From Terrimonas ginsenosidimutans (GTDB taxonomy: Bacteria; Bacteroidota; Bacteroidia; Chitinophagales; Chitinophagaceae): a stretch of 64,000 bases of DNA. Shown here piece by piece: positions 5,937-63,736 of this stretch; the first letter of the stretch is position 1; each line of letters opens with the position of its first letter. A program made the translations under genes and the position numbers. The stretch is taken from positions 186,001 to 250,000 of the forward strand of contig NZ_JAKLTR010000004.1 of assembly GCF_022012415.1 (NCBI RefSeq). Direction: 5' to 3'. A model generated the notes under the pieces. The model was not told where the DNA came from. It saw only the letters and a program-made list of their open reading frames with translations, and made no database searches.

Positions 5937-8900
5937 TTAAAGCGAAAGGTTAAGGCCAAATGTGAATGTTCGTCTCGGAGGCGTGCCCAATCCTACAACC
6001 AAAGCGCCATTGCCTCTTTCATTTGTGCGGATATTGCTTGTAGAACCGCCTACACCGCGATCACCTGACGCTGTCGCCTGTGGATCAATCCCTGTTTTTT
6101 CCCAATATGGAGAATACAAAAGTGCCACGTTGTCAACTGTAAAATATACACGGAGGCTTTGTGCATTCAGACGCTTTACAAAATTCCGGTTGAATGTATA
6201 ACCAAGATTGATGCTTCTGATTCTGATATAACTCGCATCGTAGTAACCGAGAGTTCTGGATCCGTCTGTTACAGTTGCTACATTCGTTTGCGGCATAGGA
6301 AACCAATTAGAAGGATTCGTCGGGGTCCAATAATCAACCTTTACAGAATTACGGCGTCCATCAAGGAATGTGATATAAGAAGACAAAGGCTGATGGATCT
6401 GACTGACCAGTGTGCCACCAAATCTTGCCGTGATCACTGAAGAAAGATCAAAGCCTTTATAACTAAAGCGGTTTGTAATGCCACCCTGCAGATCCGCATC
6501 CATATCGCCGATAATCCGGCGGTCATTGGTAGAACTGATCATTCCGTCAGGTCTGCCATTCGCTCCACCAAAATCAAGGAGCTTGATCTGACCAGGCATA
6601 GCGCCAACGGCTGCTGCTGCTGCTGCTTCATCTAACTGCCATACACCCTGGTTCACATAGTCATAGATTGCAGTCATAGAATGACCCACAAACAACTGAC
6701 TGCCGATGTCTTCTGAAACGTTATTGCTAAGCTTCAGCAATTTGTTGTTGTTAAAAAATAAATTAAGATCAGTGCTCCAATTAAAGCCAGACTTTGATTC
6801 AATGTTCACTGAAGAAACAGTAAACTCCATTCCCTTATTCTCCATCTCTCCGATGTTCGTAACGAAGCCACCGGCTACGCCAGAAGTAACAGGAAGATTT
6901 ACGGCATAAAGAATGTCCTTTGTACGCGAGTTGTAATACTCGAAGGTACCGGTAATGCGATTTTTCAGCAATCCGAAATCAAGACCAATATTGGTAGTAG
7001 TAGTAAACTCCCATGAGAGGTTTGGATTTGGCAGGGTGATTACATTATAGCCGGTCACAACAGTGGGACCATAGTTATAACGGATCACGTTTCCTCCTGT
7101 ATTGCCAGCAGGAAGTCCGTTAGAGTTGTTCACCAGACCTTTCGACTGATAAGGATCAATTGCCTGGTTAGATGTTTTACCCCAACCAACCCTAAGCTTT
7201 AACGTATTCACCGCTTTTACATTACTGAAAAACGACTCATCAGATATCACCCAACCAGCTGACAACGCCGGATAATCAAACCATTTATTACCTGGTGCGA
7301 GACGTGAAGATCCATCACGACGGAAAGTTGCCGTTAACAAATATCTATCCTTAAATGAATAATTCAGTCGCGCCATATAAGAGATCAACGAAGTCTTTGA
7401 CTCCCCTCCGCCTAAAGCGGTGTTGGAAGAATTGACCGGTGTCGATTGTGCAAGGTTATAGAACTGAACAAAGTCCTCAGTAATAGAATCTTTCTGAACA
7501 AAACTATTAAAGGATTGAGCTTCCTGAATACTGTAAAGAGCTGTAAAATTGAATTTATGATCCCCTACTGTTTTATCATAAAACAAAAGGTTTTCGATTG
7601 TATACCCCCATGTCTCACCATTACCGACGCGCGCGATATTACCCTGTGCCGGACGGAAAAAGCTTGGATTTGCCGGAAGTCTATCGGCAGAGCGGAACTG
7701 ACCGCTGTTTTCCTGCGCATAGTTGAGACCAACGTTTGCACGATAACGAAGTCCTTTGAAAAATTCAATCTCTGCATACACCGTATTGAATGTTCGAAGG
7801 CGACGCACACGGTCAACCCATGTCTGAGGACCATCTTTAAGTAATAAAGGATTGTAACGACCGTCTGTGTTATTATCATCGACGTTACCATTTGGCAAAA
7901 GATAAATGCTTCCATCAGGATTGTACGCCGGCATCAGCGGGCTTAAAGCAAGCGTACGGAACATTGCTGATCCGGACACAAATTGCGAACCTTTTGCAAT
8001 GCTGACCGTGTTCTGAGTAGACACACCCAGCTTAATATGTTTGCCAACGCGGGTATCTATAGCAGCTCTTAAAGTGTATCGGGTATAATCCTCTCCCGGC
8101 ATAAGAGTTGTTTCTTTGTAATACCCACCGCCAAGCATAAAGGTGTTGCCATCGCGGCCACCAGATACACTTAAATTATGATCGGTGCGCTGCGCATTCT
8201 CGTACATAAGATCCTGCCAATTTGTGTTGCGCCCTTCCGTTATGCCAACAAGCTCCTCAGGCATATAGCCAGCCGTCCATGTGGACAAATTACGAAGCGA
8301 TTGGTATTCCGACGCATTGAACAACGGATATTTATATAATGGACTTCCAATGCCATAATATCCGTTATAAGAAAGCCGTGTCTCCCCATTACGTCCTTTT
8401 TTTGTTGTAACAAGTATAACGCCATTAGCACCCCGCGAACCGTAGATCGCAGTTGCAGAAGCGTCCTTTAAAATATCAACTGATGCGATATCATCAGGGT
8501 TTATATCATTCAGGCTCCCGTCATACGGAATTCCGTCTACTACGAATAGAGGCTCATTCGAACCGCTGATCGAGCGGTTACCACGAATGCGGATCTGACC
8601 GCCCGCACCCGGCTGATTGCCGATGGCCTGTATCTCGAGACCCGCTGCCCTTCCTATAAGCGCCTGCTGAAGATTGGCAACCGGTACTTCACGCAATGCC
8701 TTTTCACTCACTGAAACAACAGCACCGGTTACGTCACGTTTTCGTTGCGTGCCATATCCAACAACAACCACTTCACCCATATCCTGAACAGCCGAACTAA
8801 GTTGGATATTGATCGTTACATCATCCCCAACAGTAATCTGCCTGTTTGTATACCCCACACTTGAAACGACCAGCACATTTCCTTTAACAGCATTAATAGA

Positions 8901-9131
8901 GAACTCCCCATTCTCATTGGTAGTGGCTCCAAGATTCGTTTCGCTGACCTGGATTGACACGCCAGGTATCGGCGTACCTGTGGTTGTGGTAATGCGACCC
9001 CTGACTGTTTTGTCCTGGGAGAACGCAACCCCGGAACAGATCAGCATGACCACCATGAAAAATACACCCGTCAGCAGTTTTGATAATGAGCCTGCCGACG
9101 GCTGCTTTTTGTTTTTCTTTTTCATAATCAT
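5937..9131 (-). CDS. SusC-family TonB-dependent transporter (xylan locus)
   Basis: Outer-membrane TonB-dependent receptor that imports oligosaccharides with the SusD partner. 1064 residues. A signal peptide spans about residues 1-39 (ends SGVAFSQ), followed by a carboxypeptidase-regulatory-like domain (VRGRITTTTGTPIPGVSIQV, about 43-125), the VVVVGYGTQRKRDVTGAV linker, a plug domain with IRIRGNRSISGSNEPLFVVD and DILKDASATAIYGSRGANGV, then a long beta-barrel ending in FTFGLNLSL with a terminal hydrophobic residue. The start is at 9131 or the in-frame ATG at 9125. First gene of the leftward xylan block, divergent from the LacI pair, so control from the shared gap is likely. Confidence 0.97.
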   Translation of the reverse strand: MIMKKKNKKQPSAGSLSKLLTGVFFMVVMLICSGVAFSQDKTVRGRITTTTGTPIPGVSIQVSETNLGATTNENGEFSINAVKGNVLVVSSVGYTNRQITVGDDVTINIQLSSAVQDMGEVVVVGYGTQRKRDVTGAVVSVSEKALREVPVANLQQALIGRAAGLEIQAIGNQPGAGGQIRIRGNRSISGSNEPLFVVDGIPYDGSLNDINPDDIASVDILKDASATAIYGSRGANGVILVTTKKGRNGETRLSYNGYYGIGSPLYKYPLFNASEYQSLRNLSTWTAGYMPEELVGITEGRNTNWQDLMYENAQRTDHNLSVSGGRDGNTFMLGGGYYKETTLMPGEDYTRYTLRAAIDTRVGKHIKLGVSTQNTVSIAKGSQFVSGSAMFRTLALSPLMPAYNPDGSIYLLPNGNVDDNNTDGRYNPLLLKDGPQTWVDRVRRLRTFNTVYAEIEFFKGLRYRANVGLNYAQENSGQFRSADRLPANPSFFRPAQGNIARVGNGETWGYTIENLLFYDKTVGDHKFNFTALYSIQEAQSFNSFVQKDSITEDFVQFYNLAQSTPVNSSNTALGGGESKTSLISYMARLNYSFKDRYLLTATFRRDGSSRLAPGNKWFDYPALSAGWVISDESFFSNVKAVNTLKLRVGWGKTSNQAIDPYQSKGLVNNSNGLPAGNTGGNVIRYNYGPTVVTGYNVITLPNPNLSWEFTTTTNIGLDFGLLKNRITGTFEYYNSRTKDILYAVNLPVTSGVAGGFVTNIGEMENKGMEFTVSSVNIESKSGFNWSTDLNLFFNNNKLLKLSNNVSEDIGSQLFVGHSMTAIYDYVNQGVWQLDEAAAAAAVGAMPGQIKLLDFGGANGRPDGMISSTNDRRIIGDMDADLQGGITNRFSYKGFDLSSVITARFGGTLVSQIHQPLSSYITFLDGRRNSVKVDYWTPTNPSNWFPMPQTNVATVTDGSRTLGYYDASYIRIRSINLGYTFNRNFVKRLNAQSLRVYFTVDNVALLYSPYWEKTGIDPQATASGDRGVGGSTSNIRTNERGNGALVVGLGTPPRRTFTFGLNLSL

Positions 9132-9480
9132 TGTTTGGCTGTTTTTAGCAGTTAGTATTAATAATACGAGCGAGTAATTGATACTCCGGAGAGGGGAAAA
9201 CTAAACGAGTGCCTTGCAATAAAACCTTTTGAAAGAAAAACTGGAAATGGCTGCGGGAAAGAGATAACGGAAAAAGACATGGTCATCCACGCTAAAATGG
9301 GCAGCCGGCAGAGGAAAAATTCATTTTTCATACAGCAGTTTTAGTATAACAATTCAATCGTTTGGCTGACTTTCTGAAGTCTTGCACAACGAATATAGGA
9401 AAATTATATAAATCCGCAACCGATTGCATTTTTTTATTTCGAAAAATCACATTTTCTTTGGGCTCAGGCAATTATAACTT
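9132..9480. promoter_or_regulatory. Divergent regulatory gap between susC and the LacI genes
   Basis: 349 bases with no credible gene. It separates the leftward xylan block from the rightward one. It contains the 12-bp LacI-type palindrome at 9416-9427. On the minus strand, TATATTCG (9398-9391) is one base off the Bacteroidota -7 consensus TAnnTTTG, and GTTG inside the palindrome (9420-9417) is spaced like a -33 element. On the plus strand, TTTCTTTG (9453-9460) just before the lacI start is also one base off. These promoter calls are inference. Confidence 0.6.
9416..9427. promoter_or_regulatory. LacI-type operator 1
   Basis: GCAACCGATTGC, an imperfect palindrome with GCAA/TTGC arms around a central CG, the usual layout of LacI/GalR-family operators. 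It is identical over all 12 bases to 10544-10555. It lies 53 bases before the first LacI start and overlaps a possible leftward -33 element, so one bound repressor could control both directions. Confidence 0.7.
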
Positions 9481-10524
9481 ATGTCAGAAGACCGGGAAAT
9501 AACGATTTATGATATTGCAAAGCACCTCGGGATCTCCGCTGCCACTGTCAGCCGTGGCCTGAAGAACAATACCATGATCAGCAAAAGCACCCGGAAGAAA
9601 ATTGCCGACGCCGCGAAAGAACTTGGATATCAGTCGAATACATTTGCCAGCAGCTTACGGAGTAAGAATACACATACATTGGGCGTACTCGTTCCCAGGT
9701 TGAACAGCCACTTCATGTCGTCCGTTCTGGCCGGCATGGAAAAAGCGGCCAGTAAACAGGGCTACAACCTCATTATTGCGCAATCGCTTGAGGACGCCGA
9801 CCGGGAGGTTGTAAACGCCTCCACCATGTTCAATAAACGGGTAGACGGCCTGTTGATCTCCCTTTCCGCTAATACAGAGAATCTCAATCACTTAGATTCA
9901 TTTTTCAAGCGAAAGATCCCGGTTGTGTTCTTTGACCGCGTGCATCCGCACGCAGATACGACCTCCATCATCATAGATAATTATGGTGCAGCCTACAAAG
10001 TCACCTCACACCTGATCCAGCAGGGATGCAAACGCCTCATGCACCTGGGAGGCAATCTCCTCAGGGATGTATACCGCCAGCGCCTGGAGGGCTTTCAACA
10101 GGCTCTTAAAGATCATCACCTCCCTTTTATAGAGGAATTACATATCATCAGTACCCTTTCCGAAGATGCCGGTACCGATGCAGCCAGGTATATCCTCGAC
10201 CTGCCCGTCTCAAAACGACCGGATGGGGTATTTTGCGCCAATGATACGGTGGCCGTTCATTGCATGATCGGTCTGAAAGCGGCCGGACTCCGGATCCCGG
10301 AGGATATCGCCTTTGCTGGTTTTAATAATGACCCGATCAGTAAGGTAGTTGAGCCGAATCTGACGACTGTCGACTACTCCGGCGAGGTCGTCGGTACCAC
10401 GGCTGTCTCTAACCTTATTAGTCACCTCAAGGGAATCAGCGACTTATATATGACAAATCAGATCACTCTCCGGTCAGAACTGATCGTCCGTGCCTCTTCG
10501 GCAAAAATGAGAACTGATATTTAA
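9481..10524 (+). CDS. LacI/GalR-family transcriptional regulator 1
   Basis: Sugar-responsive DNA-binding regulator, 347 residues, normal for the family. The N-terminal helix-turn-helix is ITIYDIAKHLGISAATVSRG (residues 7-26), followed by a hinge helix region (NTFASSLRSKNTHTLGVLVP) and a periplasmic-binding-protein-like effector domain with FDRVHPHADTTSIIIDNYGAA, RPDGVFCANDTVAV and IAFAGFNNDPISKVVEPNLTT motifs. It is first in the rightward xylan block and divergent from susC. A close paralogue follows after 37 bases, and the operator-like sequence before this gene is repeated before the paralogue. It probably represses the xylan genes, including its own, until a xylan-derived ligand binds; the ligand cannot be read from the sequence. 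Confidence 0.95.
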   Translation: MSEDREITIYDIAKHLGISAATVSRGLKNNTMISKSTRKKIADAAKELGYQSNTFASSLRSKNTHTLGVLVPRLNSHFMSSVLAGMEKAASKQGYNLIIAQSLEDADREVVNASTMFNKRVDGLLISLSANTENLNHLDSFFKRKIPVVFFDRVHPHADTTSIIIDNYGAAYKVTSHLIQQGCKRLMHLGGNLLRDVYRQRLEGFQQALKDHHLPFIEELHIISTLSEDAGTDAARYILDLPVSKRPDGVFCANDTVAVHCMIGLKAAGLRIPEDIAFAGFNNDPISKVVEPNLTTVDYSGEVVGTTAVSNLISHLKGISDLYMTNQITLRSELIVRASSAKMRTDI

Positions 10525-10543
10525 TTTTTTTTGCGATCTTCAG

Positions 10544-10555
10544 GCAACCGATTGC
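10544..10555. promoter_or_regulatory. LacI-type operator 2
   Basis: GCAACCGATTGC, identical to operator 1. It ends 6 bases before the ATG of the second LacI gene, so a bound repressor would sit in the leader of that gene and could block transcription across the junction. This suggests auto- or cross-regulation of the pair. Confidence 0.65.
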
Positions 10556-10561
10556 AAAAAA

Positions 10562-11587
10562 ATGAAGCCAAAAAAGGATATAACCATTTATGATATAGCG
10601 GAAAAGCTGAAACTCTCCTCTGCAACCGTCAGCCGGGCTTTGCAAAACCACCCCGCCATAAATAAGAAAACAAAGGAAAAAGTACAGGCCGCCGCTCTAA
10701 CCCTTGGCTACCGCCACAATACCTTTGCAAGTAGTCTCCGTAAACAACAGACCCACACGATCGGCGTGGTCGTTCACGAGCTGAAGAGCAGCTTTATCAC
10801 CTCCGTTCTTGCAGGTATCGAAAAGATCACTTCCGAAGCCGGGTATGATCTGATCATTGCCCACTCTTCCGAAAGCTTCAAAAAAGAAGCAGCAAACGCA
10901 CTCAACCTTTTTCACAAAAGAGTGGACGGCCTCATCGCCTCCCTTTCATTCGATACCACCGGCCTTGAACATTTCAAACCGTTCCAGGAAAAAGGAATTC
11001 CAATCGTCTTCTTCGACCGTGTGGAAGAAAATTCCGAAAGCACAAAAGTTGTCATCGATAACTATAAATGCGGATATGAAGCAACCTCTCACCTGATCAG
11101 CCAGGGATGTAAACGCATTGTACTCGTTACCGCCGACCTGAAGCGTAATGTTTACAAACGCCGCTACATGGGCTATAAAGATGCATTGTTCGACAATGAT
11201 ATTCCTTTTATCGAAAATCATGTCCTGATCAAAGATCTTAGCGAACAGGGTGGTATGGAAGCCGCAAAGCAGATCCTGAAAATGAAACCGCGCCCCGATG
11301 GCGTGTTTGTCACAAACGACTTCTCCGCCGCCGTATGCATGCAAACATTAAAGGAAAATGGCATGAAAGTTCCCGAAGATATCGCCATCGTTGGTTTTAA
11401 TAATGACGCGATCGGAAAGATCGTCGAACCACAGCTTACAACGATTGATTACCCTGGCGTGGATATGGGAACCATCGCCGCCAGGCATTTGATTGATCAC
11501 CTGAAAGGAGTGGCAAGTATTGAAAATACAAGTACGATCGTGATACATTCTGATCTGATCATCCGTAAATCTTCTATGCGCAAATAA
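10562..11587 (+). CDS. LacI/GalR-family transcriptional regulator 2
   Basis: Paralogue of the preceding gene, 341 residues. HTH ITIYDIAEKLKLSSATVSRA at residues 7-26, hinge HNTFASSLRKQQTHTIGVVV, then an effector domain with FFDRVEENSESTKVVIDNYK, RPDGVFVTNDFSAAV and IAIVGFNNDAIGKIVEPQLTT. The recognition-helix stretch (SATVSRAL versus AATVSRGL) is nearly the same as in regulator 1, in keeping with a shared operator, while the effector domains differ more. The two could sense different sugars, for example a xylo-oligosaccharide and a uronate, or form heterodimers; both ideas are inference. The ATG at 10562 follows directly after the operator palindrome. Confidence 0.95.
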   Translation: MKPKKDITIYDIAEKLKLSSATVSRALQNHPAINKKTKEKVQAAALTLGYRHNTFASSLRKQQTHTIGVVVHELKSSFITSVLAGIEKITSEAGYDLIIAHSSESFKKEAANALNLFHKRVDGLIASLSFDTTGLEHFKPFQEKGIPIVFFDRVEENSESTKVVIDNYKCGYEATSHLISQGCKRIVLVTADLKRNVYKRRYMGYKDALFDNDIPFIENHVLIKDLSEQGGMEAAKQILKMKPRPDGVFVTNDFSAAVCMQTLKENGMKVPEDIAIVGFNNDAIGKIVEPQLTTIDYPGVDMGTIAARHLIDHLKGVASIENTSTIVIHSDLIIRKSSMRK

Positions 11588-11589
11588 GC

Positions 11590-11690
11590 ACGAATGGTCG
11601 CCAGCTAACACGAATGCACGCTAATGATAATGGAGATGCCAATTATGAAAATGATACGAATTACGCGAATTACACGAATTACACGAATTA
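11590..11690. repeat. Family-D CGAATTACA-type repeat tract
   Basis: Contains CACGAATGGTCGCC and AACACGAATGCACGC, then four 9-base units CGAATTACG, CGAATTACA, CGAATTACA, CGAATTA at 11657-11690. The period of nine keeps frame, so the tract reads as ITR-ITR-ITR in the gene that starts inside it. CGAATTACA-type tracts are probably intergenic repeats that the downstream gene has partly absorbed. Confidence 0.7.
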
Positions 11691-13849
11691 AGAGAACAAC
11701 AGGGATGATAGTGGCAATGGCTTTGTCCATGCTGCTTGCTATGCAGGCGGGGGCAGAAACAGGTTATGAATTATGGATGCGTTATGTGCCTGTGCAAAAT
11801 CAACCATTGTTGAATTCATACAGACTGCAGATAAATAGTATCGCTGTAAATACCGGATCCCCTACTCTACGCATCGTAAAAAATGAACTGATCTCCGGCC
11901 TCACAGGCTTGCTTGGAAAGAAAATAGATACAACTGGAAAGACTGCTTTAAACGGTATCCTGTCAGCAGAAACCTACAATCCCGCCGGCGTATCAGGCAA
12001 AGCAGGGTTGAAATCCTTGCTGGAGCAAACCGGAGAAGAAGGATTTGTGATCGCCACAAAAACAGTCAATAATAAGAAGCATATCATCATCACCGGGAAT
12101 ACGGACATCGCCGTACTGTATGGCACATTCCATTTTCTCCGGCTGATACAAACTCAACAGAATATCTCTTCCCTTCAGATCATATCAACGCCGAAGATGA
12201 AATTACGGATGCTGAATCATTGGGACAACCTGAACAGAACGGTTGAACGCGGGTATTCAGGTTCTTCTATCTGGAACTGGCATACCTTACCGGGCTATAT
12301 CGATCCGAGATACGTTGACTATGCAAGAGCCAACGCTTCTATTGGCATTAACGGCACCGTGTTAACCAACGTAAATGCCAACGCTACTTTTCTGACACCA
12401 CCTTATCTGCAAAAAGTAAAAGCACTTGCCGATGCATTCAGACCTTACGGCATTAAAGTATATCTCACCGCAAGATTCAGCGCTCCAATAGAGATCGGCA
12501 AACTAAAAACAGCTGATCCTCTTGACCCGCAGGTACAGCAATGGTGGAATGACAAGATCAGTGAAATATACCAGGTGATTCCCGACTTCGGCGGATTTGT
12601 TGTGAAAGCAAACAGCGAAGGGCAGCCAGGTCCGCAGGACTACAAACGCACACATGCAGACGGCGCAAACATGCTAGCCTCCGCCATCGCTCCGCATAAA
12701 GGCATTATCATCTGGCGCGCGTTCGTATACAGTAATGAAAATCCTGTCGACAGGCATAAACAGGCTTATGACGACTTTGTTCCGCTTGATGGAAAATTCA
12801 ACAGCAACGTCATGGTGCAGGTAAAGAATGGGGCAATCGACTTCATGCCACGCGAACCTTTCCATCCGTTATTCGGCGCCATGCCGAAAACACCGTTGAT
12901 GATGGAATTCCAGGTCACACAGGAATATCTCGGCCAGGGAACAACGCTCGCCTTCCTTGCTCCTTTATTTAAAGAAACACTGGAGAGCGATACCTACAGC
13001 AAAGGAAAAGGAAGCACCGTAGCAAAAGTGATCGACGGCAGTGTTGATCAGCATGCACTGAATGGAATGGCAGGCGTATCCAATATCGGCAGCGATATTA
13101 ACTGGACAGGTCACCCGCTCTCGCAGGCAAACTGGTACGCCCTCGGTCGGCTTGCCTGGGATCATTCCCTTTCAAGTGAAAAAATCGCCGAAGAATGGCT
13201 GCGGATGAGTTTCTCCAATAATGCTGCTTTCCTTTCAACCATGATCCCATTGATGTGCAATAGCCGCGAAACCGTTGTCCGATACATGAACCCGATCGGT
13301 TTGCATCATATTATGGGAACGAGTCATCACTATGGACCTGCACCCTGGGTCAGCAATCTGAATCGCCCTGAATGGAATCCAGTGTACTACCATAAGGCCG
13401 ACAGTCTCGGTATCGGTTTCGACCGGACCTCCAAAGGCAGCAATGCACTCGGCCAGTACGCTCCTGAAGTAAGAAAGCTCTGGGAAGATATAAATACCTG
13501 TGAAGAAAAGAACCTTCTCTGGTTTCATCATGTTCCCTGGACGTTCAAAATGAAAAGCGGCCGCAATGTCTGGGAAGAACTTTGCTACAACTACTATACA
13601 GGTGCGGAGAAAGTAAAACAAATGCAGGCCTCGTGGAAAAAGATGCAGCCATTTGTAGACCCGCAACGCTTTGACCAGATCACAATGCTTTTCAACGTTC
13701 AATACGAAGAAGCGATCTGGTGGCGCAATGCCTGCCTGCTGTATTTCCAGACATTCAGCAAAATGCCTATTCCATCGAATTACGAAAAACCAGATAGATC
13801 ACTCGACTATTACAAGAGCCTGCGCTTCCCTTTTGCGCCGGGCATTTAA
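11645..13849 (+). CDS. GH67 alpha-glucuronidase
   Basis: Removes (4-O-methyl-)glucuronic acid from the terminal xylose of xylo-oligosaccharides. About 734 residues from the start at 11645, typical for GH67. An N-terminal alpha/beta region (residues about 100-180) precedes a TIM barrel with MLNHWDNLNRTVERGYSG, FVVKANSEGQPGPQDYKR carrying the expected general-acid Glu, DFMPREPFHP, and MMEFQVTQEYLGQG carrying the second carboxylate. The start is uncertain. ATGs at 11624 and 11645 put a repeat-encoded RITRITRITRIKR segment before the hydrophobic helix (MALSMLLAMQAGAE), giving a long basic signal-peptide n-region. An ATG at 11705 would give a signal without basic residues. First enzyme gene of the rightward operon. 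Confidence 0.95.
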   Translation: MKMIRITRITRITRIKRTTGMIVAMALSMLLAMQAGAETGYELWMRYVPVQNQPLLNSYRLQINSIAVNTGSPTLRIVKNELISGLTGLLGKKIDTTGKTALNGILSAETYNPAGVSGKAGLKSLLEQTGEEGFVIATKTVNNKKHIIITGNTDIAVLYGTFHFLRLIQTQQNISSLQIISTPKMKLRMLNHWDNLNRTVERGYSGSSIWNWHTLPGYIDPRYVDYARANASIGINGTVLTNVNANATFLTPPYLQKVKALADAFRPYGIKVYLTARFSAPIEIGKLKTADPLDPQVQQWWNDKISEIYQVIPDFGGFVVKANSEGQPGPQDYKRTHADGANMLASAIAPHKGIIIWRAFVYSNENPVDRHKQAYDDFVPLDGKFNSNVMVQVKNGAIDFMPREPFHPLFGAMPKTPLMMEFQVTQEYLGQGTTLAFLAPLFKETLESDTYSKGKGSTVAKVIDGSVDQHALNGMAGVSNIGSDINWTGHPLSQANWYALGRLAWDHSLSSEKIAEEWLRMSFSNNAAFLSTMIPLMCNSRETVVRYMNPIGLHHIMGTSHHYGPAPWVSNLNRPEWNPVYYHKADSLGIGFDRTSKGSNALGQYAPEVRKLWEDINTCEEKNLLWFHHVPWTFKMKSGRNVWEELCYNYYTGAEKVKQMQASWKKMQPFVDPQRFDQITMLFNVQYEEAIWWRNACLLYFQTFSKMPIPSNYEKPDRSLDYYKSLRFPFAPGI

Positions 13850-13880
13850 CAAAATCAACGAACCAATAAAGAAGAATTTT

Positions 13881-14621
13881 ATGAAAAGGAAAGTGGCAAT
13901 TGTTACAGGTGGTGGCTCAGGACTGGGCTTCGCGATCGCGGAAAAATTTGTGCAGCAGGGAATCGATACCATCATCGCCGGACGAAATGAACAGAAACTG
14001 AATGAGGCAAAAAATAAACTGGGAGAACTATGCCATACACAGCCCTGTGATGTGACTGATCTCAAATCATTGCCCCAATTTATACAACAGATCGTAGACA
14101 AATTCGGGCAGATAGACATTCTCGTCAACAATGCCGGGATCAATATGAAAAAAGAATTCACCGACGTAACAGATGAAGATTTCCAGCAGGTGATCATGAC
14201 CAACGTGAGCTCTGTGTTCACGCTAAGCCGTGAAGTGGTAAAACAAATGCTGAAACAGGAAAACGGTTGCATCATTAATATCAGTTCCATGGCTGCCCAA
14301 TACGGCATTCCTAAAGTGATCGCCTATTCAGCCAGTAAGACAGCCATTGACGGCATGACCCGCGCCATGGCAGTGGAACTTTCGCCAAAAGGCATCCGTG
14401 TGAATGCGATCGCTCCCGGGTTTATTTATTCTGATATGACCGCGAAAGCGCTGGACAGCGACCCGGAAAGAAAAGCAAAAGTATTCGGACGAACACCAAT
14501 GGGCATCATGGGGCAAGCAGCAGATATCGGTGAAGCCGCATACTTTCTTGCCAGCGATTCAGCAAAATATATCACCGGCGTGATCCTGCCCGTTGACGGC
14601 GGAAACAGCGTCGGCTTCTAA
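13881..14621 (+). CDS. SDR-family NAD(P)-dependent dehydrogenase, uronate/aldonate type
   Basis: Cytoplasmic short-chain dehydrogenase of 246 residues. Nucleotide-binding TGGGSGLG near residue 9, NNAG near 89, catalytic Ser in INISSMAAQYG, and YSASK with the Tyr/Lys pair. The C-terminus ends PVDGGNSVGF. The start at 13881 (MKRKVAIVTGGG) fits the Rossmann beta-1 position; the reading frame is open further upstream into the GH67 gene but without meaning. It is most like gluconate 5-dehydrogenase/FabG-type enzymes. Between two alpha-glucuronidase genes, and with uxuA in the divergent block, a likely job is reduction of fructuronate to mannonate, filling the role of UxuB. That assignment rests on context only. 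Confidence 0.88.
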   Translation: MKRKVAIVTGGGSGLGFAIAEKFVQQGIDTIIAGRNEQKLNEAKNKLGELCHTQPCDVTDLKSLPQFIQQIVDKFGQIDILVNNAGINMKKEFTDVTDEDFQQVIMTNVSSVFTLSREVVKQMLKQENGCIINISSMAAQYGIPKVIAYSASKTAIDGMTRAMAVELSPKGIRVNAIAPGFIYSDMTAKALDSDPERKAKVFGRTPMGIMGQAADIGEAAYFLASDSAKYITGVILPVDGGNSVGF

Positions 14622-14630
14622 AATAACTGT

Positions 14631-17171
14631 ATGAAAAAACGTCTTCTTCTTTTTATCACGACGGTACTCGCCATTTATGGACAGGCACAGTCACTTATTT
14701 CAGAAAAAGCCTCACCGTTATTCTTTTCTTTGAAGGAAGCAACGATCTGCGTTGACCCGAATGATCATGAACTGGTTCGCCAATCAGCTATATTATTACA
14801 AACCGATCTTGAAAAAGTGACCGGTATCAAACCAGCGATCAGCTCAACGATCACAGGGAAAACAAGTATCGTGATCGGATCAGCAGACAGATCTTCATTG
14901 ATCAGATCATTGGCAGCAAAGAAGACGATCAATCTCACTGGCATCAACCAGCAATGGGAAGCATTTACCTGGAAGAGCAACAATAACCAGTTGATCATCG
15001 CAGGCAGCGACAGGCGCGGAACCGCATTCGGCGTATTCGAACTCTCCAAACAGATCGGAGTTTCGCCGTGGTATTGGTGGGCAGATGTGCCGGTTAAAGC
15101 AAAGAAGGAACTTTTTTTCAAAAAGAATCAAACCCATACTGATAAGCCTTCCGTAAAATACCGTGGCATCTTTATCAATGATGAAGCCCCGGCTTTATCA
15201 GGATGGAGCAAAGAAAAATTCGGCGGCTTCAACCACTTCTTCTACGAAAAAGTATTCGAACTGATCCTTCGTCTGAAAGGCAACTATCTCTGGCCGGCCA
15301 TGTGGGGAAATGCATTTTATGACGATGATTCACTCAATATAAAAATGGCCGATAAATACGGGATCGTGATCGGAACCTCCCATCATGAACCGCTGATGCG
15401 TGCGCACGATGAATGGAGAAGGCACGGTACAGGTAAATGGAATTACGACAGCAATAAAGTAAAACTCCAGGAATTCTGGCGCGGGGGAATGCAAAGAGCT
15501 ACCAATGAAAAGATCGTATCTGTCGGGATGCGTGGCGATGGAGACGAACCAATGTCCAGGGAAACAGCAACCGATCTCCTGGAAAGAATCGTAAAAGACC
15601 AGCGGGAGATCATTGCAGACGTAACCGGAAAGCCTGCCGAACAAACACCACAGCTTTGGGCATTATACAAAGAAGTACAGGATTACTACGACAAAGGCAT
15701 GCGTGTACCCGACGATGTGACCTTACTGCTTTGTGATGATAACTGGGGAAATCTCCGTAAACTTCCCAAACCAACAGATAAGAAACGAAAAGGCGGTTAT
15801 GGGATTTATTATCACTTCGATTATGTCGGCGGACCAAGAAACTACAAATGGCTGAACACAAATCCGCTTCCCCGCGTTTGGGAACAAATGCATCTCGCCT
15901 GGAAGCATGATGTAAAAGATATCTGGATCGTGAATGTGGGAGATATCAAACCAATGGAATTGCCGATCTCCTTCTTTCTCGATTATGCATGGAATCCTGA
16001 TAAGATCGGGCCAACGGATATACAGAAATATACAGATAGCTGGGCGGCTGCTCAGTTTGGAACAGAACATTCAAAAGAAATAGGTGAGATTCTTGCCAAA
16101 TATGCAAAATTCAATGGCAGAAGAAAACCAGAATTACTGGACGCAAGGACATACACCCTGCCTTCCGAATGGCATACAGTTGTAAATGACTATAACGACC
16201 TACTCAAAAAAACAGAACAGATCAACTCACAGCTTCCGGCTGCATATAAAGATGCATTCTTCCAGCTTGTACTTCATCCCGTAAAAGCCTGCGCAAACCT
16301 GAACGAGATGTATTATAATGCAGCACTTAACAAAAACGCCTCTACTAATAAATGGATAGAAGCTAATGGTTACGCAGACAATGTCAGAAAGCTCTATGAA
16401 AATGATTCCCTGATCACACTTCAGTACCATCAGTTAAATGGAGGAAAGTGGAACCACATGATGAGCCAGAAACACATCGGCTACACCTCCTGGCAGGAAC
16501 CAAGATGGCAGCGTATGCCCGCAGTCACCTATCTTCCAGCAGACTCAGCTGTAGCACCATCCGATTCGGTCTTAGCATACATTCAACCTCATTTAACAGC
16601 CGGTACAAAATCACGGGGAAATACCTTCTTAGAAAAACAAGGATCGGGTGTATCTATCGACGCTACCAACTATACAACTGCTGTAAACGCTGGTCCTGTT
16701 AAATGGCAGATCCTGCCCGATCATGGAAGAACAGCTTCAGCCATCACGGCATTTCCTGTAACCGCACCAGCTCAAACGCCCCGAAAGACCAGTCCACATC
16801 TGCAATACGATGTATTCACCTCCAGCACGGGAGATTTCTCCATACACACGTATCACTCTCCTTCCCTCAATTTTTATTCATCTGAAGAAGGTCTGCAGTA
16901 CGCCATCTCCATTGACGACGAAACGCCACAGATCATCTCTATTAATAAAGAAGATAAGAACTCTATCAGCGGGATCTGGAATAAATGGGTATCGGAAAGC
17001 ATCATTATCAAAACGACCAAACATAAAATATCCAAACCGGGAATGCACACAGTGAAATACTGGATGGTAACCCCGGGACCGGTCTTGCAAAAGATCGTTG
17101 TAGATTTCGGTAATGTAAAGCCATCTTATCTCGGTCCTGAAGAAACGATTCTCACAAAAGAAAAAAAATGA
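14631..17171 (+). CDS. GH115 alpha-glucuronidase
   Basis: Exported enzyme that removes (methyl)glucuronic acid from internal as well as terminal xyloses of glucuronoxylan, thus complementing GH67. 846 residues. Signal peptide MKKRLLLFITTVLAIYGQAQ, an N-terminal GH67-like domain (residues about 30-165), then the GH115 catalytic barrel with RGIFINDEAPALSGW, NYLWPAMWGNAFYDDD, GTSHHEPLMRAHDEW, VSVGMRGDGDEPM and LLCDDNWGNLRKLP, followed by an all-helical part and a C-terminal beta-sandwich from about residue 690. The gene follows the SDR stop after 9 bases and precedes the second GH10 gene by 4 bases, so they are cotranscribed. Confidence 0.95.
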   Translation: MKKRLLLFITTVLAIYGQAQSLISEKASPLFFSLKEATICVDPNDHELVRQSAILLQTDLEKVTGIKPAISSTITGKTSIVIGSADRSSLIRSLAAKKTINLTGINQQWEAFTWKSNNNQLIIAGSDRRGTAFGVFELSKQIGVSPWYWWADVPVKAKKELFFKKNQTHTDKPSVKYRGIFINDEAPALSGWSKEKFGGFNHFFYEKVFELILRLKGNYLWPAMWGNAFYDDDSLNIKMADKYGIVIGTSHHEPLMRAHDEWRRHGTGKWNYDSNKVKLQEFWRGGMQRATNEKIVSVGMRGDGDEPMSRETATDLLERIVKDQREIIADVTGKPAEQTPQLWALYKEVQDYYDKGMRVPDDVTLLLCDDNWGNLRKLPKPTDKKRKGGYGIYYHFDYVGGPRNYKWLNTNPLPRVWEQMHLAWKHDVKDIWIVNVGDIKPMELPISFFLDYAWNPDKIGPTDIQKYTDSWAAAQFGTEHSKEIGEILAKYAKFNGRRKPELLDARTYTLPSEWHTVVNDYNDLLKKTEQINSQLPAAYKDAFFQLVLHPVKACANLNEMYYNAALNKNASTNKWIEANGYADNVRKLYENDSLITLQYHQLNGGKWNHMMSQKHIGYTSWQEPRWQRMPAVTYLPADSAVAPSDSVLAYIQPHLTAGTKSRGNTFLEKQGSGVSIDATNYTTAVNAGPVKWQILPDHGRTASAITAFPVTAPAQTPRKTSPHLQYDVFTSSTGDFSIHTYHSPSLNFYSSEEGLQYAISIDDETPQIISINKEDKNSISGIWNKWVSESIIIKTTKHKISKPGMHTVKYWMVTPGPVLQKIVVDFGNVKPSYLGPEETILTKEKK

Positions 17172-59494: not shown

Positions 59495-62245
59495 CTACTT
59501 CGCTACACGAACTCTTTTATAACAGCTATTCAGAAATGCCCTGATCTCCGTACGTAACCTTTTTAATTCTGTAAGATCATCTTTGTGTGTCAGTTTCCAA
59601 TTTGAAAGTTTATTATCTATTGCCATGACCATCGCTATGGGAACAGCCTGCCTGGTTCTTATCTGTTCCTTAGTGAAAACAGTTCTGAGCCGTCCCATTT
59701 CAGTCTGCTCATCTTCAAAAACAAATTTTGCTTTTTCAAACAGCACCCGCATAATAGATGTTACCGTTTCAGGTAGTTTACTGGAATCAAGAGCCTTTGT
59801 AGATTCCTTGAAGATGCGTGTCGCATTGGAATAGGCAAATTGAACTTCTTTAGTCGGCCATTCAGCTGCGTAATAGGTCCGCACCCCTACACCGTACTTT
59901 AAAGGTTGCTGCAACGATTGTTTGGTTTTATGCAGCATATGGTCAAAAGCATGCTTACTGATTTCAGATTGCTCTGTTTTCTCATATTTAACTTTTTCGA
60001 TAAAAGGTTCATAGTTCTTTTTACGGACAGAATTTCCAGGTACGTGTTTCATCATTAAAATAGACAGGATCTCATTCCAGTATAAATCGAATTTGCTCTT
60101 GATATCCTCGGGTATGGTATTCTCTTCCTGAAATTCTTTTATTTCAGTATTCTGACTTCCCTTGCTTCTTGAGGCATCGCTGACAGTCATCAACAGCAGA
60201 TCGATCGCTGCATCAAGCGTGAATACAAAGACTGAAAGCTGTCGTATATCTTCCCAATTACCCCACTCTGTTTCGTTCAGCTCAAATGTCTTCTTTTCAG
60301 CTTTCGTTTCGCCAATTGATATTTCTTTCACCCTGTCGATTTTGAATGATGGCGCTTTTCCTCCATCTTCTCTGCCATCAAGGGTCTGCTCTTTTTGAAA
60401 TTCTGCCGAGATGGTGATAAGCTGGGCTGTATTGGCCTGAGTGGACTTCATGATCTTAAATCCGGTTACAGCATCCCTCCATAATCCCACCACCGTTCCA
60501 CTCCCAGGAATCCTTGCATCTGTATCGGCATTTTCTGGCTTAGACCTGGACGCCATTCCATAGGAGGTGAGAGAGAAGACTGCGGTACCAGGATCGTCTG
60601 CCAGTACACTTGCATAGCGGGCAGACCATCTCTCCGTGAGTTGTGGCCCGTCACTAAGTAAAGCCACTAAAAATGTGGGTCCTACCCCTCTGATGATCTC
60701 TGAAACCGGCTCCAGACGAGCAAGGTCTTCACAGATCAGCGAAGTGATCACCAGCCAGTCATTTGGCGCAAGAAATGTCAACCGCCGCTGAGAAACGGTC
60801 GTATACTCAAACCACCTCCGCTCTGTAGATAACACGCCCTGCAGATCATATTGAATGATCTGCTTCCTGTCAAGCTGCCAGCGATGATGTTTCCGCTGCT
60901 TCACTTCGTACCAGCGTCCTGCAAAATAAGATGCTACCCTAACTTCATTATTTACATAACGTTCTGCTTTATCCATCTGTTTAAGGGGCGCCTGATCGGA
61001 CCCATTTAATCCTATCACGCCTGCAATGATCATGGGCAGCTTAAATGATTCACCAGTGGACTTTACAGCAAGCAGCTTATGGAAGCGGCTCAGCATGTGT
61101 TGATACTCTTCTTCTTTCAACGCACATTCAGGAAAGACTATCATATGAATGGTGGTACCTGTATCATGCAGATCAAAGACAAGTTTGATGATCGCTTCCA
61201 GCATCGCTATTCCTTCTACATTTTTCTTTTCAAAGTTGGGCTGAAAATAACGGACCGAATGATAGCGTTCTTCCATCACCTTGAAATCGTCATTGGAAAC
61301 CTGGTAAGGAAATGGAAAAGCCAGCACATTTAATGTCTTCTCATTTGAATTAAGCCAGGGGATCGTCCGCCAGATCACTTCTACTTCTGTAGCATGATAG
61401 CTGATATGATGGGACATGGAGCGTAGAATAAATCCAACCTGAGGAGTCCTCATTTTTGGCAATACCACGCCATGAAATTTGGAAACAGTACTTAATGAAC
61501 CGGTTGAAATAAGCAGGAGGTTTGCTTTCATCTTTGCAAACGCTCTGATCCCTGTTGCGAACTCGTATTTGTCGAGTGAAGTCGTATAACACTCGCTAAC
61601 CAACCCAAACCCCATACAAGCTTCATCAGCCAGGGCATGTATCCAAACAAGAATAAGGGCTATCTCGCGGCATTTGTAGAATTTCTCTTCGGAAAAATCC
61701 GCGTTCAACTGCAGATCAAGACTATCCCAGGTGTCTGACGATATCAAACGAAGCTCTTCTATATTGACATCTTCCGTATCCAGTTTGTGCCAAAGACGCT
61801 CCAGCAGTTCCAGCTTCGCTATCCAGCCCTTGCAGGATACAGACCTCTTTGTAACGATCTTTTCCTTGATCTCAGCAAGTGAACCACTATGCTCCTGCAT
61901 GGCGGCAAAGCCGGTCACATTAATCCACGCAGATCCTACAGATCTGATATCCTCCTGCCATTTCTCCGACTGCCAGTAGAATTTTTTTGACGAAGACATT
62001 TCTCCCTGACTTCCTTTTTTAAAAGACGCAGTTTCAGCATGAGTATCTTGTACAGCATTCAGCCATTCTTCTTCCAGCTCAACCAGGGCAATCCGATAAC
62101 AGCCAGTTCGCTGTAACAATATAGATGTTACAAGAAACACGTCAGGAGGCCAAAGCAGCCAATCCTGGAATAAACTATCCTCTCTCTTTCCTACAAGGGA
62201 TGAAATGAAATCCCGGACAAATAAAGTGTTTTCTCCCGCACTCAT
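59495..62245 (-). CDS. Large protein with embedded nitrilase (CN-hydrolase)-fold domain, function unknown
   Basis: 916 residues from ATG 62245 (MSAGENTLFVRDF); a TTG at 62296 would add 17. Not recognised as a whole. The middle part (about 305-625) has the nitrilase triad in order and spacing: Glu373 in IHMIVFPECALKEEEY, Lys449/452 in WYEVKQRKHHRW, and Cys505 in WLVITSLICEDLARL, followed by ARYASVLADDPGTAVF as in the nitrilase 'ARA' segment. The N-terminal 300 residues are mostly helical, with DWLLWPPDVFLVTSILLQ, and end in LPKMRTPQVGFILRSMSHHI. The C-terminal 290 are charged and helical. No signal peptide or TM helix. Nitrilase domains occur fused to reverse transcriptases in DRT1-type phage defence, but no RT motif is seen here. 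Convergent with the rhamnosidase gene, 27 bases apart. Confidence 0.75.
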   Translation of the reverse strand: MSAGENTLFVRDFISSLVGKREDSLFQDWLLWPPDVFLVTSILLQRTGCYRIALVELEEEWLNAVQDTHAETASFKKGSQGEMSSSKKFYWQSEKWQEDIRSVGSAWINVTGFAAMQEHSGSLAEIKEKIVTKRSVSCKGWIAKLELLERLWHKLDTEDVNIEELRLISSDTWDSLDLQLNADFSEEKFYKCREIALILVWIHALADEACMGFGLVSECYTTSLDKYEFATGIRAFAKMKANLLLISTGSLSTVSKFHGVVLPKMRTPQVGFILRSMSHHISYHATEVEVIWRTIPWLNSNEKTLNVLAFPFPYQVSNDDFKVMEERYHSVRYFQPNFEKKNVEGIAMLEAIIKLVFDLHDTGTTIHMIVFPECALKEEEYQHMLSRFHKLLAVKSTGESFKLPMIIAGVIGLNGSDQAPLKQMDKAERYVNNEVRVASYFAGRWYEVKQRKHHRWQLDRKQIIQYDLQGVLSTERRWFEYTTVSQRRLTFLAPNDWLVITSLICEDLARLEPVSEIIRGVGPTFLVALLSDGPQLTERWSARYASVLADDPGTAVFSLTSYGMASRSKPENADTDARIPGSGTVVGLWRDAVTGFKIMKSTQANTAQLITISAEFQKEQTLDGREDGGKAPSFKIDRVKEISIGETKAEKKTFELNETEWGNWEDIRQLSVFVFTLDAAIDLLLMTVSDASRSKGSQNTEIKEFQEENTIPEDIKSKFDLYWNEILSILMMKHVPGNSVRKKNYEPFIEKVKYEKTEQSEISKHAFDHMLHKTKQSLQQPLKYGVGVRTYYAAEWPTKEVQFAYSNATRIFKESTKALDSSKLPETVTSIMRVLFEKAKFVFEDEQTEMGRLRTVFTKEQIRTRQAVPIAMVMAIDNKLSNWKLTHKDDLTELKRLRTEIRAFLNSCYKRVRVAK

Positions 62246-62638
62246 AATGACGACCGTTTTATTACCACAATTGAAATAATTCAGTTTCAGGCGCAAATCC
62301 CCGCTTCATAGTTAAACAGGCAGACACAGTAAACTTTTCATTGGGTGAATAGGTCATTCAATCACGTAACGTGACAGTATTGGAAAAGAGATCCAACTAT
62401 CTTTCATCAAAAAGATACGGAAATTAAAAACCTGCACAAAAGGTATTTTATAGTTTTATCAGATCCACGCAAAAGGAGGGTTAATACACTTTTCATCTAG
62501 GGTGATTTCACCCCCAACCCGTAACTTCCCACACAAACAAATTATCCGATCTGATATCACCCATTCTTTCTTAAAGTGATCGGAGTAAGTCCGCTTAAAG
62601 TAGTTGAACTGGTCAATGGTCTTCTCTTCTGTTAACGC
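62246..62638. other. Gene-free stretch before the nitrilase-fold gene
   Basis: About 390 bases with no convincing gene. It contains a perfect small palindrome GGGTGATTTCACCC at 62500-62513 and should hold the promoter of the leftward gene. Nothing else stands out. Confidence 0.5.
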
Positions 62639-62926
62639 CTAAACGCTTCCATTTTTCCGGCTTCTTCGGGGGGGCTTATTCCACACAATCTTTGGCAACA
62701 ACAGCTTAACCATCTGTCCAACATAAGTCTTCGGAAATGCCTCGCTGATCCCAAAACTATCAGGCTCTTTCGGCGGACAAACATACGTCCCAAAGATCAG
62801 ATCCATCAGCGGTGAAATATTCGCATAATTCCATACTAATTTAATTGCCTTGTCCGGAAAAAAGTCCCAACGCTCCGCTGTTAACATCCAGAAAGAACAA
62901 AATCGAAAATATATGATCTGGGAGTA
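62639..62926 (-). pseudogene. Relic resembling a sterol desaturase/fatty acid hydroxylase C-terminus
   Basis: An open frame of under 100 residues with no good start. Its middle, NYANISPLMDLIFGTYVCPP followed by KEPDSFGISEAFPKTYVGQM, resembles the C-terminal end of the sterol desaturase/fatty acid hydroxylase superfamily (pattern NYxNxxPxxDxxFGTY, then FGI and a YxxQ helix). The His-rich clusters and membrane helices that should precede it are absent; upstream in this frame is a stop, and the neighbouring frame (62841-63077) shows no His motif. It therefore looks like the tail of a gene whose front has been deleted. The similarity is by eye only. Confidence 0.45.
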
Positions 62927-63007
62927 GCCTCATCCAGTCATGATTTTTATTAAACAATCTCATCCGGATCATTCGCATGCGCCTAAAAAAACTGCATTCA
63001 ATTCCAC

Positions 63008-63736
63008 TTATGACATCGCCGACAACTTCATTGCCATCACCGCAATCACAGAAGCCAACACTACCAGTATCCACCACATACTCCGTTTAGTTTTGCTATT
63101 TATATTTTTGCTGGTGATAGTTTTGATGAAACTCCACGTCATCAATGCAACCAGTCCGGTTCCTGCTACTACAACAACAATCTTATTATTCACACCGTAA
63201 ACACAAAGCATAAGTCCGATGGTCAGCAGCAAGACCAGACCCTGATATTTCTCAAGGAGGGATGTACTGGACTTTTCACTGAACGGGCGGATCTGGCTTA
63301 AGAGCGCTTCCAGCGTCGAAACATTGTCGATCTGTGGCGGGATAAAAATCAGATCACCTGAATTCCTTCCTTTAATCAAAAAAGCACCTTTCTTCGTTTT
63401 GATAATGCTATTAATATCGTTGAAGTAGATCGAAATTGTTGGCGTATTCAGCTGCTCCCGCGTAATCAGGTTGTTTGTAATGGTCAGCGTATAACTCTCC
63501 AGCAATGCTTTTTGCTTTCTTATTGCGCTATAGATCCCAGCCCCAAAAGCAAGCGCTATGAAAACAATCATTATCAGAAACGTCGTTATTCCTGAGCCAG
63601 CAATCTTTTCTTTCGAATTAGATATGCTGACGATCACTGCCCCGATCATCACAACGCTCATCAAAGGAATTATACGGTTCAACATTTGCTTTTTTAAAAC
63701 ATTGATCCCGTCACGGTTGATCTTAAAAACTTGCAT
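63008..63736 (-). CDS. Membrane protein with PH-like middle domain, function unknown
   Basis: 242 residues with four hydrophobic segments in two pairs: IIPLMSVVMIGAVIVSI and FLIMIVFIALAFGAGIY near the N-terminus, and LVLLLTIGLMLCVYGV with IVVVVAGTGLVALMTWSFI near the C-terminus, plus a short last one (WWILVVLASVIAVMAMKL). Between the pairs a soluble part of about 90 residues (SYTLTITNNLITREQLNTPT, YFNDINSIIKTKKGAFLIKG, DLIFIPPQIDN) looks like a small PH/YcxB-type beta domain. No function can be assigned. It lies upstream of the desaturase relic and downstream of a partial gene, all leftward. Confidence 0.7.
   Translation of the reverse strand: MQVFKINRDGINVLKKQMLNRIIPLMSVVMIGAVIVSISNSKEKIAGSGITTFLIMIVFIALAFGAGIYSAIRKQKALLESYTLTITNNLITREQLNTPTISIYFNDINSIIKTKKGAFLIKGRNSGDLIFIPPQIDNVSTLEALLSQIRPFSEKSSTSLLEKYQGLVLLLTIGLMLCVYGVNNKIVVVVAGTGLVALMTWSFIKTITSKNINSKTKRSMWWILVVLASVIAVMAMKLSAMS

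Follow-up and report, generated by a model that had tools for sequence, protein, structure and literature searches.

The closest described systems are the DRT type 1 (class 3 UG-RT) proteins, in which a nitrilase domain is fused to a reverse transcriptase (RT) or has one encoded beside it. In DRT1 the nitrilase acts as the effector in abortive infection and its substrate is unknown; nitrilases in phage defence are described as uncommon (PMC13275509). The literature that we searched, which lay mostly outside subscription journals and preprints, held no RT-free nitrilase defence protein. The window analysed here (the whole stretch of DNA, 64,000 nucleotides) encodes such a nitrilase-like protein, P0001, which has no RT. 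We favour, at slightly better than an even chance, the reading that P0001 is a cytoplasmic carbon-nitrogen (C-N) hydrolase and the stand-alone effector of an RT-less mobile conflict or anti-phage module. Its family may represent a new kind of phage-defence enzyme.

The frame of P0001 is uninterrupted from the ATG at 62245 to the stop at 59495. A TTG at 62296 is a possible upstream extension of the open frame; the N-termini of the relatives agree with a start at the ATG. The gene is present once in its own 7.1-Mb genome. When P0001 alone was searched against Pfam, NCBIfam, PADLOC and PDB sequences, nothing significant was obtained apart from an implausible kinase match. This weak match, to an NCBIfam type III pantothenate kinase (E 9e-4), and a PDB match to malic enzyme were both judged to be due to chance, because the fold of P0001 disagrees with them.

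An AlphaFold2 model of P0001 was built from a 58-sequence alignment of the family (pLDDT 80.6, pTM 0.87). The model is helical over residues ~1-250, alpha/beta over 298-643 and helical again over 667-911. All 44 of the Foldseek matches with a probability of 1.00 (44/44) were nitrilase-superfamily chains. VIA-align placed model residues 303-626 on yeast Nit2 with a Z of 18.4 (rmsd 4.0, 247 residues) and gave Z of about 16-18 with the glutaminase domains of NAD+ synthetases. A viral-protein structure library gave no significant match to the model, and nothing RT-like was seen in its fold or in Foldseek. By its modelled fold and its Glu-Lys-Cys order P0001 is a nitrilase-superfamily protein, as an earlier note made from the sequence had proposed. 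The roughly 300 residues on each side of the core, in which that note recognised nothing, are helical in the model (about 1-250 and about 667-911).

Residue conservation was scored over 97 family sequences, where shortfalls from this number are gaps in partial sequences (Table 1). Three of the catalytic residues first named, Glu373, Lys452 and Cys505, proved invariant, but Lys449, named beside Lys452, is not conserved among the relatives. The second catalytic Glu of nitrilases is expected about 25 residues before the Cys. Glu480 of P0001 lies 25 residues before Cys505 and, because this spacing fits, is likely the second catalytic Glu (the fourth catalytic residue). The stretch LADDPG was considered as an RT YxDD motif and rejected: on the nitrilase fold it follows the Cys, and of its Asp residues the second alone is nearly invariant.

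The N-terminal helical domain has as conserved features WPPDxF, Trp107 and Asp207 in the family alignment. Its model found no fold match in the PDB (Foldseek best E 1.6; VIA best Z 3.6), which is no proof of a new fold. The C-terminal helical extension is missing from short members in the 97-sequence alignment, and the motifs shared among the long members are weak. With hhalign, neither flanking domain showed homology to the DRT region that precedes the nitrilase.

Table 1. Features of the P0001 gene, in positions of the window.
Feature	Positions	Strand	Basis
P0001 gene, 916 aa, long-clade member	59495..62245	minus	intact ORF; family alignments; clade support 1.0
N-terminal helical domain, residues 1-250, family-wide	61496..62245	minus	AlphaFold2 models; alignment
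Nitrilase-superfamily domain, residues 298-643	60317..61354	minus	Foldseek, VIA-align, profile alignments with catalytic residues in register
Catalytic Glu373 codon	61127..61129	minus	invariant, 94/94
Catalytic Lys452 codon, KHHRW motif	60890..60892	minus	invariant, 95/95
Glu480 codon, likely second catalytic Glu	60806..60808	minus	invariant, 96/96; role inferred from spacing to Cys
Catalytic Cys505 codon, ICEDLAR motif	60731..60733	minus	invariant, 97/97
C-terminal helical extension, residues 645-916, long clade only	59498..60313	minus	AlphaFold2 model; alignment of long members

The neighbours of P0001 in the window are a rhamnosidase-like gene, a PH-like membrane protein, a DUF1801 gene and a rhomboid gene, and no recognisable defence gene is among them. 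The locus is neither a defence island nor linked to an integrase, and a defence role, suggested partly from these surroundings, is not supported by them. The earlier remark that the RT is missing holds beyond the window, as no RT-nitrilase occurs anywhere in the genome. Between the end of the P0001 gene and the convergent rhamnosidase gene there are 27 bp, which leaves no room for a small partner gene 3' of P0001. The other examined genome of the genus has neither the family gene nor the rhamnosidase gene, and since the latter is also absent the comparison is uninformative as an empty site. Upstream of P0001 lies an interrupted frame (MLTAERWDFFPDKAIK..., window 62246-63007, minus strand) with an apparent frame change in a tract of seven C (about 62668-62674), after which reading resumes. 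It had no Pfam match and is either a decayed gene or a phase-variable tract. The PH-like membrane protein (window 63008-63736, minus strand) weakly resembles the STM3941 family (E 0.002).

Searches with the single P0001 sequence found no relatives in genome contigs, viral contigs, phages or 394 other Bacteroidota genomes. The family was entered through tblastn against plasmids, which gave 12 records with 27-36% identity to P0001, and then through an alignment-based search, which confirmed 165 loci in species-representative genomes; 80 of these were retained (L014-L093). The family is widespread, unnamed and uncatalogued. It occurs in Bacteroidota, Acidobacteriota, Myxococcota-like bacteria, Planctomycetota and Pseudomonadota, among others, with a patchy, single-copy distribution over chromosomes, plasmids and viral contigs (five of the last). 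In Bacteroidota it is rare, with one convincing profile match in 395 genomes. There are two forms, a short one of ~600 aa (about 530-700 aa) and a long one. On a 95-tip tree the twelve long-form genes make up one separate clade with a support of 1.0, and P0001 falls within it. A deltaproteobacterial genome (L020) carries tandem long-form paralogues at 9896-12652 and 13427-16162.

A recurring partner gene of at least 80 aa was sought beside the family and not found; a small gene surfaced once the length limit for partner ORFs was lowered. Short-form members commonly have a short ORF at their 3' end, overlapping or at most about 120 bp away. Homologues of the small gene, which is mostly unannotated or overlooked, were recognised at 44 of about 83 short-form loci. 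Eight of their groups are codirectional; two more, both alphaproteobacterial, are convergent, with stops at most about 20 bp from the hydrolase stop. Iterative searches started from the three main groups brought in 9, 9 and 5 such ORFs but not one of 5,281 decoy ORFs. One smaller group drew in a decoy beginning at the very edge of its stretch (L007), and two further decoys drawn in were the same ORF with an alternative start. Judged from substitution patterns the small gene is subject to purifying selection: dN/dS was 0.06-0.44 in six close pairs, with an excess of third-position change. Most of the groups are monophyletic on the 95-tip tree. A recognised partner was present at 44/83 short-form and 0/12 long-form genes (Fisher P 3e-4, but this reflects one evolutionary event). 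By hhalign the small-protein groups showed no homology to one another, and none of them to the C-terminal extension of the long form. As a hypothesis, the C-terminal domain of the long form may stand in for the small partner.

Of 5,426 complete E. coli genomes, 17 carry the gene, E. coli W among them, and 12 of these 17 copies are 99-100% identical to that of E. coli W. Several are called 'carbon-nitrogen hydrolase family protein' by NCBI's pipeline, which is consistent with the fold. The intact pair of E. coli W is WFL_RS23695/WFL_RS23690, whose small partner WFL_RS23690 (88 aa) is annotated and belongs to the Vibrio group of small genes. In E. coli W the gene is located in a tRNA-Leu island, with a complete type I R-M system on one side and a 5'-nucleotidase, a phosphorothioate-dependent endonuclease (REase) and an integrase on the other. 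The same block, in which the hydrolase and the small gene lie with the type I R-M, 5'-nucleotidase and phosphorothioate-dependent REase genes, was found at tRNA-Phe in other strains; the E. coli loci compared are L178-L181. Two records labelled E. coli DH5alpha, NZ_CP026085.1 and NZ_CM135829.1, have a block 100% identical to that of E. coli W, and these labels may be wrong.

A small linked gene beside an effector is a feature of toxin-antitoxin pairs, present in the short form and absent from the long clade of P0001. The locus could be an addiction or island-stabilising module of this type, with the hydrolase as toxin, the small protein or the C-terminal domain as antidote, and defence at most secondary. 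The tight linkage of the small gene at the 3' end, whether codirectional or convergent, and the presence of the family on islands and plasmids agree with this. So does the state of three E. coli strains, in which the hydrolase gene is frameshifted and the small ORF is open with an altered C-terminus; these frameshifts are compatible with a costly protein but also with plain decay. We nevertheless regard an addiction module as unlikely, since the hydrolase, at about 600 aa and with an extra domain that is conserved, would be unusually large for a toxin and several groups of short members are without a recognisable partner.

The neighbours of the relatives were examined for defence genes. The 80 nearest include type I R-M subunits, RTasPolA (DRT), GmrSD, S8 peptidases, BrxL and integrases. 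In a matched control on 20 of the same genomes (PADLOC at E 1e-15, random stretches chosen arbitrarily), 108 proteins near the family gave 102 PADLOC models and 116 random-stretch proteins gave 5, where models rather than proteins are counted and a handful of loci supplies the matches. The models on the family side included CBASS cyclase, HORMA, TRIP13 and effectors, IetA and type II methyltransferases, and those of the random stretches were RtcR-like, LolE-like CARF and HEAT. Relatives lie near CBASS, type I R-M, GmrSD, IetAS and DRT genes far above chance, and many family loci are defence islands or integrase-linked. Ten other chosen neighbours of relatives had zero PADLOC matches, so the enrichment stems from a subset of loci, and several relatives (L032, L046, L059, L088) have ordinary surroundings. 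Accessory or defence placement, proposed in the earlier note, is supported for relatives, near which RTs and nucleotide cyclases, genes that it advised looking for, do occur; some other relatives lie in housekeeping surroundings.

Two loci show particular arrangements. In L022 a protease-RT fusion and a family-A DNA polymerase (RTasPolA-type DRT, 6053-9891) directly adjoin a long-form member. In L059 the family gene is flanked by near-identical 149-aa genes in direct repeat (7891-8337 and 11973-12419), which looks like insertion by recombination.

Most nitrilase-fold enzymes serve metabolism. Some relatives have metabolic genes around them, and P0001 itself adjoins the alpha-L-rhamnosidase-like gene, as might be expected if the family acted as an amidase, nitrilase or carbamoylase in the metabolism of a secondary or scavenged compound. 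The small protein would then be a structural subunit, and the nearness of defence genes would come from shared mobile islands. A metabolic neighbour never recurs, however, and the patchy, single-copy distribution, the defence enrichment in the matched control, the large extra domain and the DRT effectors as nearest profile kin all argue for a different role. A metabolic enzyme therefore seems improbable to us.

Sequence searches of Pfam, NCBIfam and the PDB did not find relatives of the family, and the Pfam CN_hydrolase model (PF00795) matched 0 of 58 members even at E 0.01. With PADLOC, the 58 members gave matches to RTasNitrilase (13), RT_UG5-nitrilase (10) and Drt1a (5), with a best E of 3e-6; P0001 itself matches none of these models. 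In the members inspected individually the matches were confined to the nitrilase core. In profile-profile alignment the family reached E 3e-5 against DRT nitrilases (298 columns) and E 3e-4 against ordinary CN hydrolases (284 columns), the PE, K and C motifs being in register in both. The likeness to RT-nitrilase fusions pointed out earlier is thus upheld, DRT nitrilase domains being the nearest profile matches, but the closer kinship to DRT than to CN hydrolases is suggestive only, because the DRT sample is small.

The family is without an RT and is therefore no DRT, and as the polymerase domain is absent, control of the nitrilase by protein-primed DNA synthesis is not expected. RT genes are occasional neighbours of the relatives and never constant ones. 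That RT-nitrilases are the closest profile matches would also suit a degenerate DRT-type protein, which has lost its RT and keeps a vestigial nitrilase. This is disfavoured and very improbable, given catalytic residues that are invariant across many phyla, an N-terminal domain unlike the DRT part before the nitrilase, and the age and diversity of the family.

The stand-alone effector module remains our preferred reading. A more specific version of it, an undescribed RT-independent immune system consisting of a nitrilase enzyme with a new N-terminal helical sensor and gated by a tiny, fast-diverging 3' protein or a built-in C-terminal domain, we rate somewhat short of an even chance. The mechanism that we propose for the preferred reading is modelled on abortive infection by the DRT1 nitrilase. 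The N-terminal helical domain would sense infection or drive assembly, and the active site would be restrained or gated by the small protein in the short form and by the C-terminal domain in the long form. The released hydrolase, through its active-site Cys, would cut an amide- or nitrile-type C-N bond in an essential metabolite or, alternatively, yield a toxic product, and growth of the infected cell would stop. If true, a widespread family of RT-less effectors would uncouple the chemistry of killing from DNA synthesis, and the question of the substrate could be tested directly. Most copies of the small partner gene lack annotation, so that both halves escape the current defence catalogues.

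Like the DRT type 1 / class 3 UG-RT proteins (Drt1a, RT_UG5-nitrilase, RTasNitrilase), the family has a nitrilase domain whose catalytic motifs follow one another in the same order; it repeatedly, though weakly, matches the nitrilase part of their profiles, and it is linked to defence loci. Unlike them, it has no RT domain or constant RT neighbour, its N-terminal helical domain is different, and a small partner gene or a C-terminal helical domain is present instead. The glutaminase domain of NadE and Nit2 / omega-amidase share with it the fold and the Glu-Lys-Cys chemistry, and NadE glutaminase has, as the P0001 family does, CED around the catalytic Cys. The family differs from these enzymes in its low identity (about 12%), in the absence of a synthetase domain and in a family-specific insertion after the catalytic Lys with KHHRWxL, DGPQxxxRW and DPG motifs. 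With Pfam CN_hydrolase it shares the structural superfamily and a profile-profile match with the catalytic residues aligned, whereas the six CN_hydrolase matches in the genome of P0001 are separate genes.
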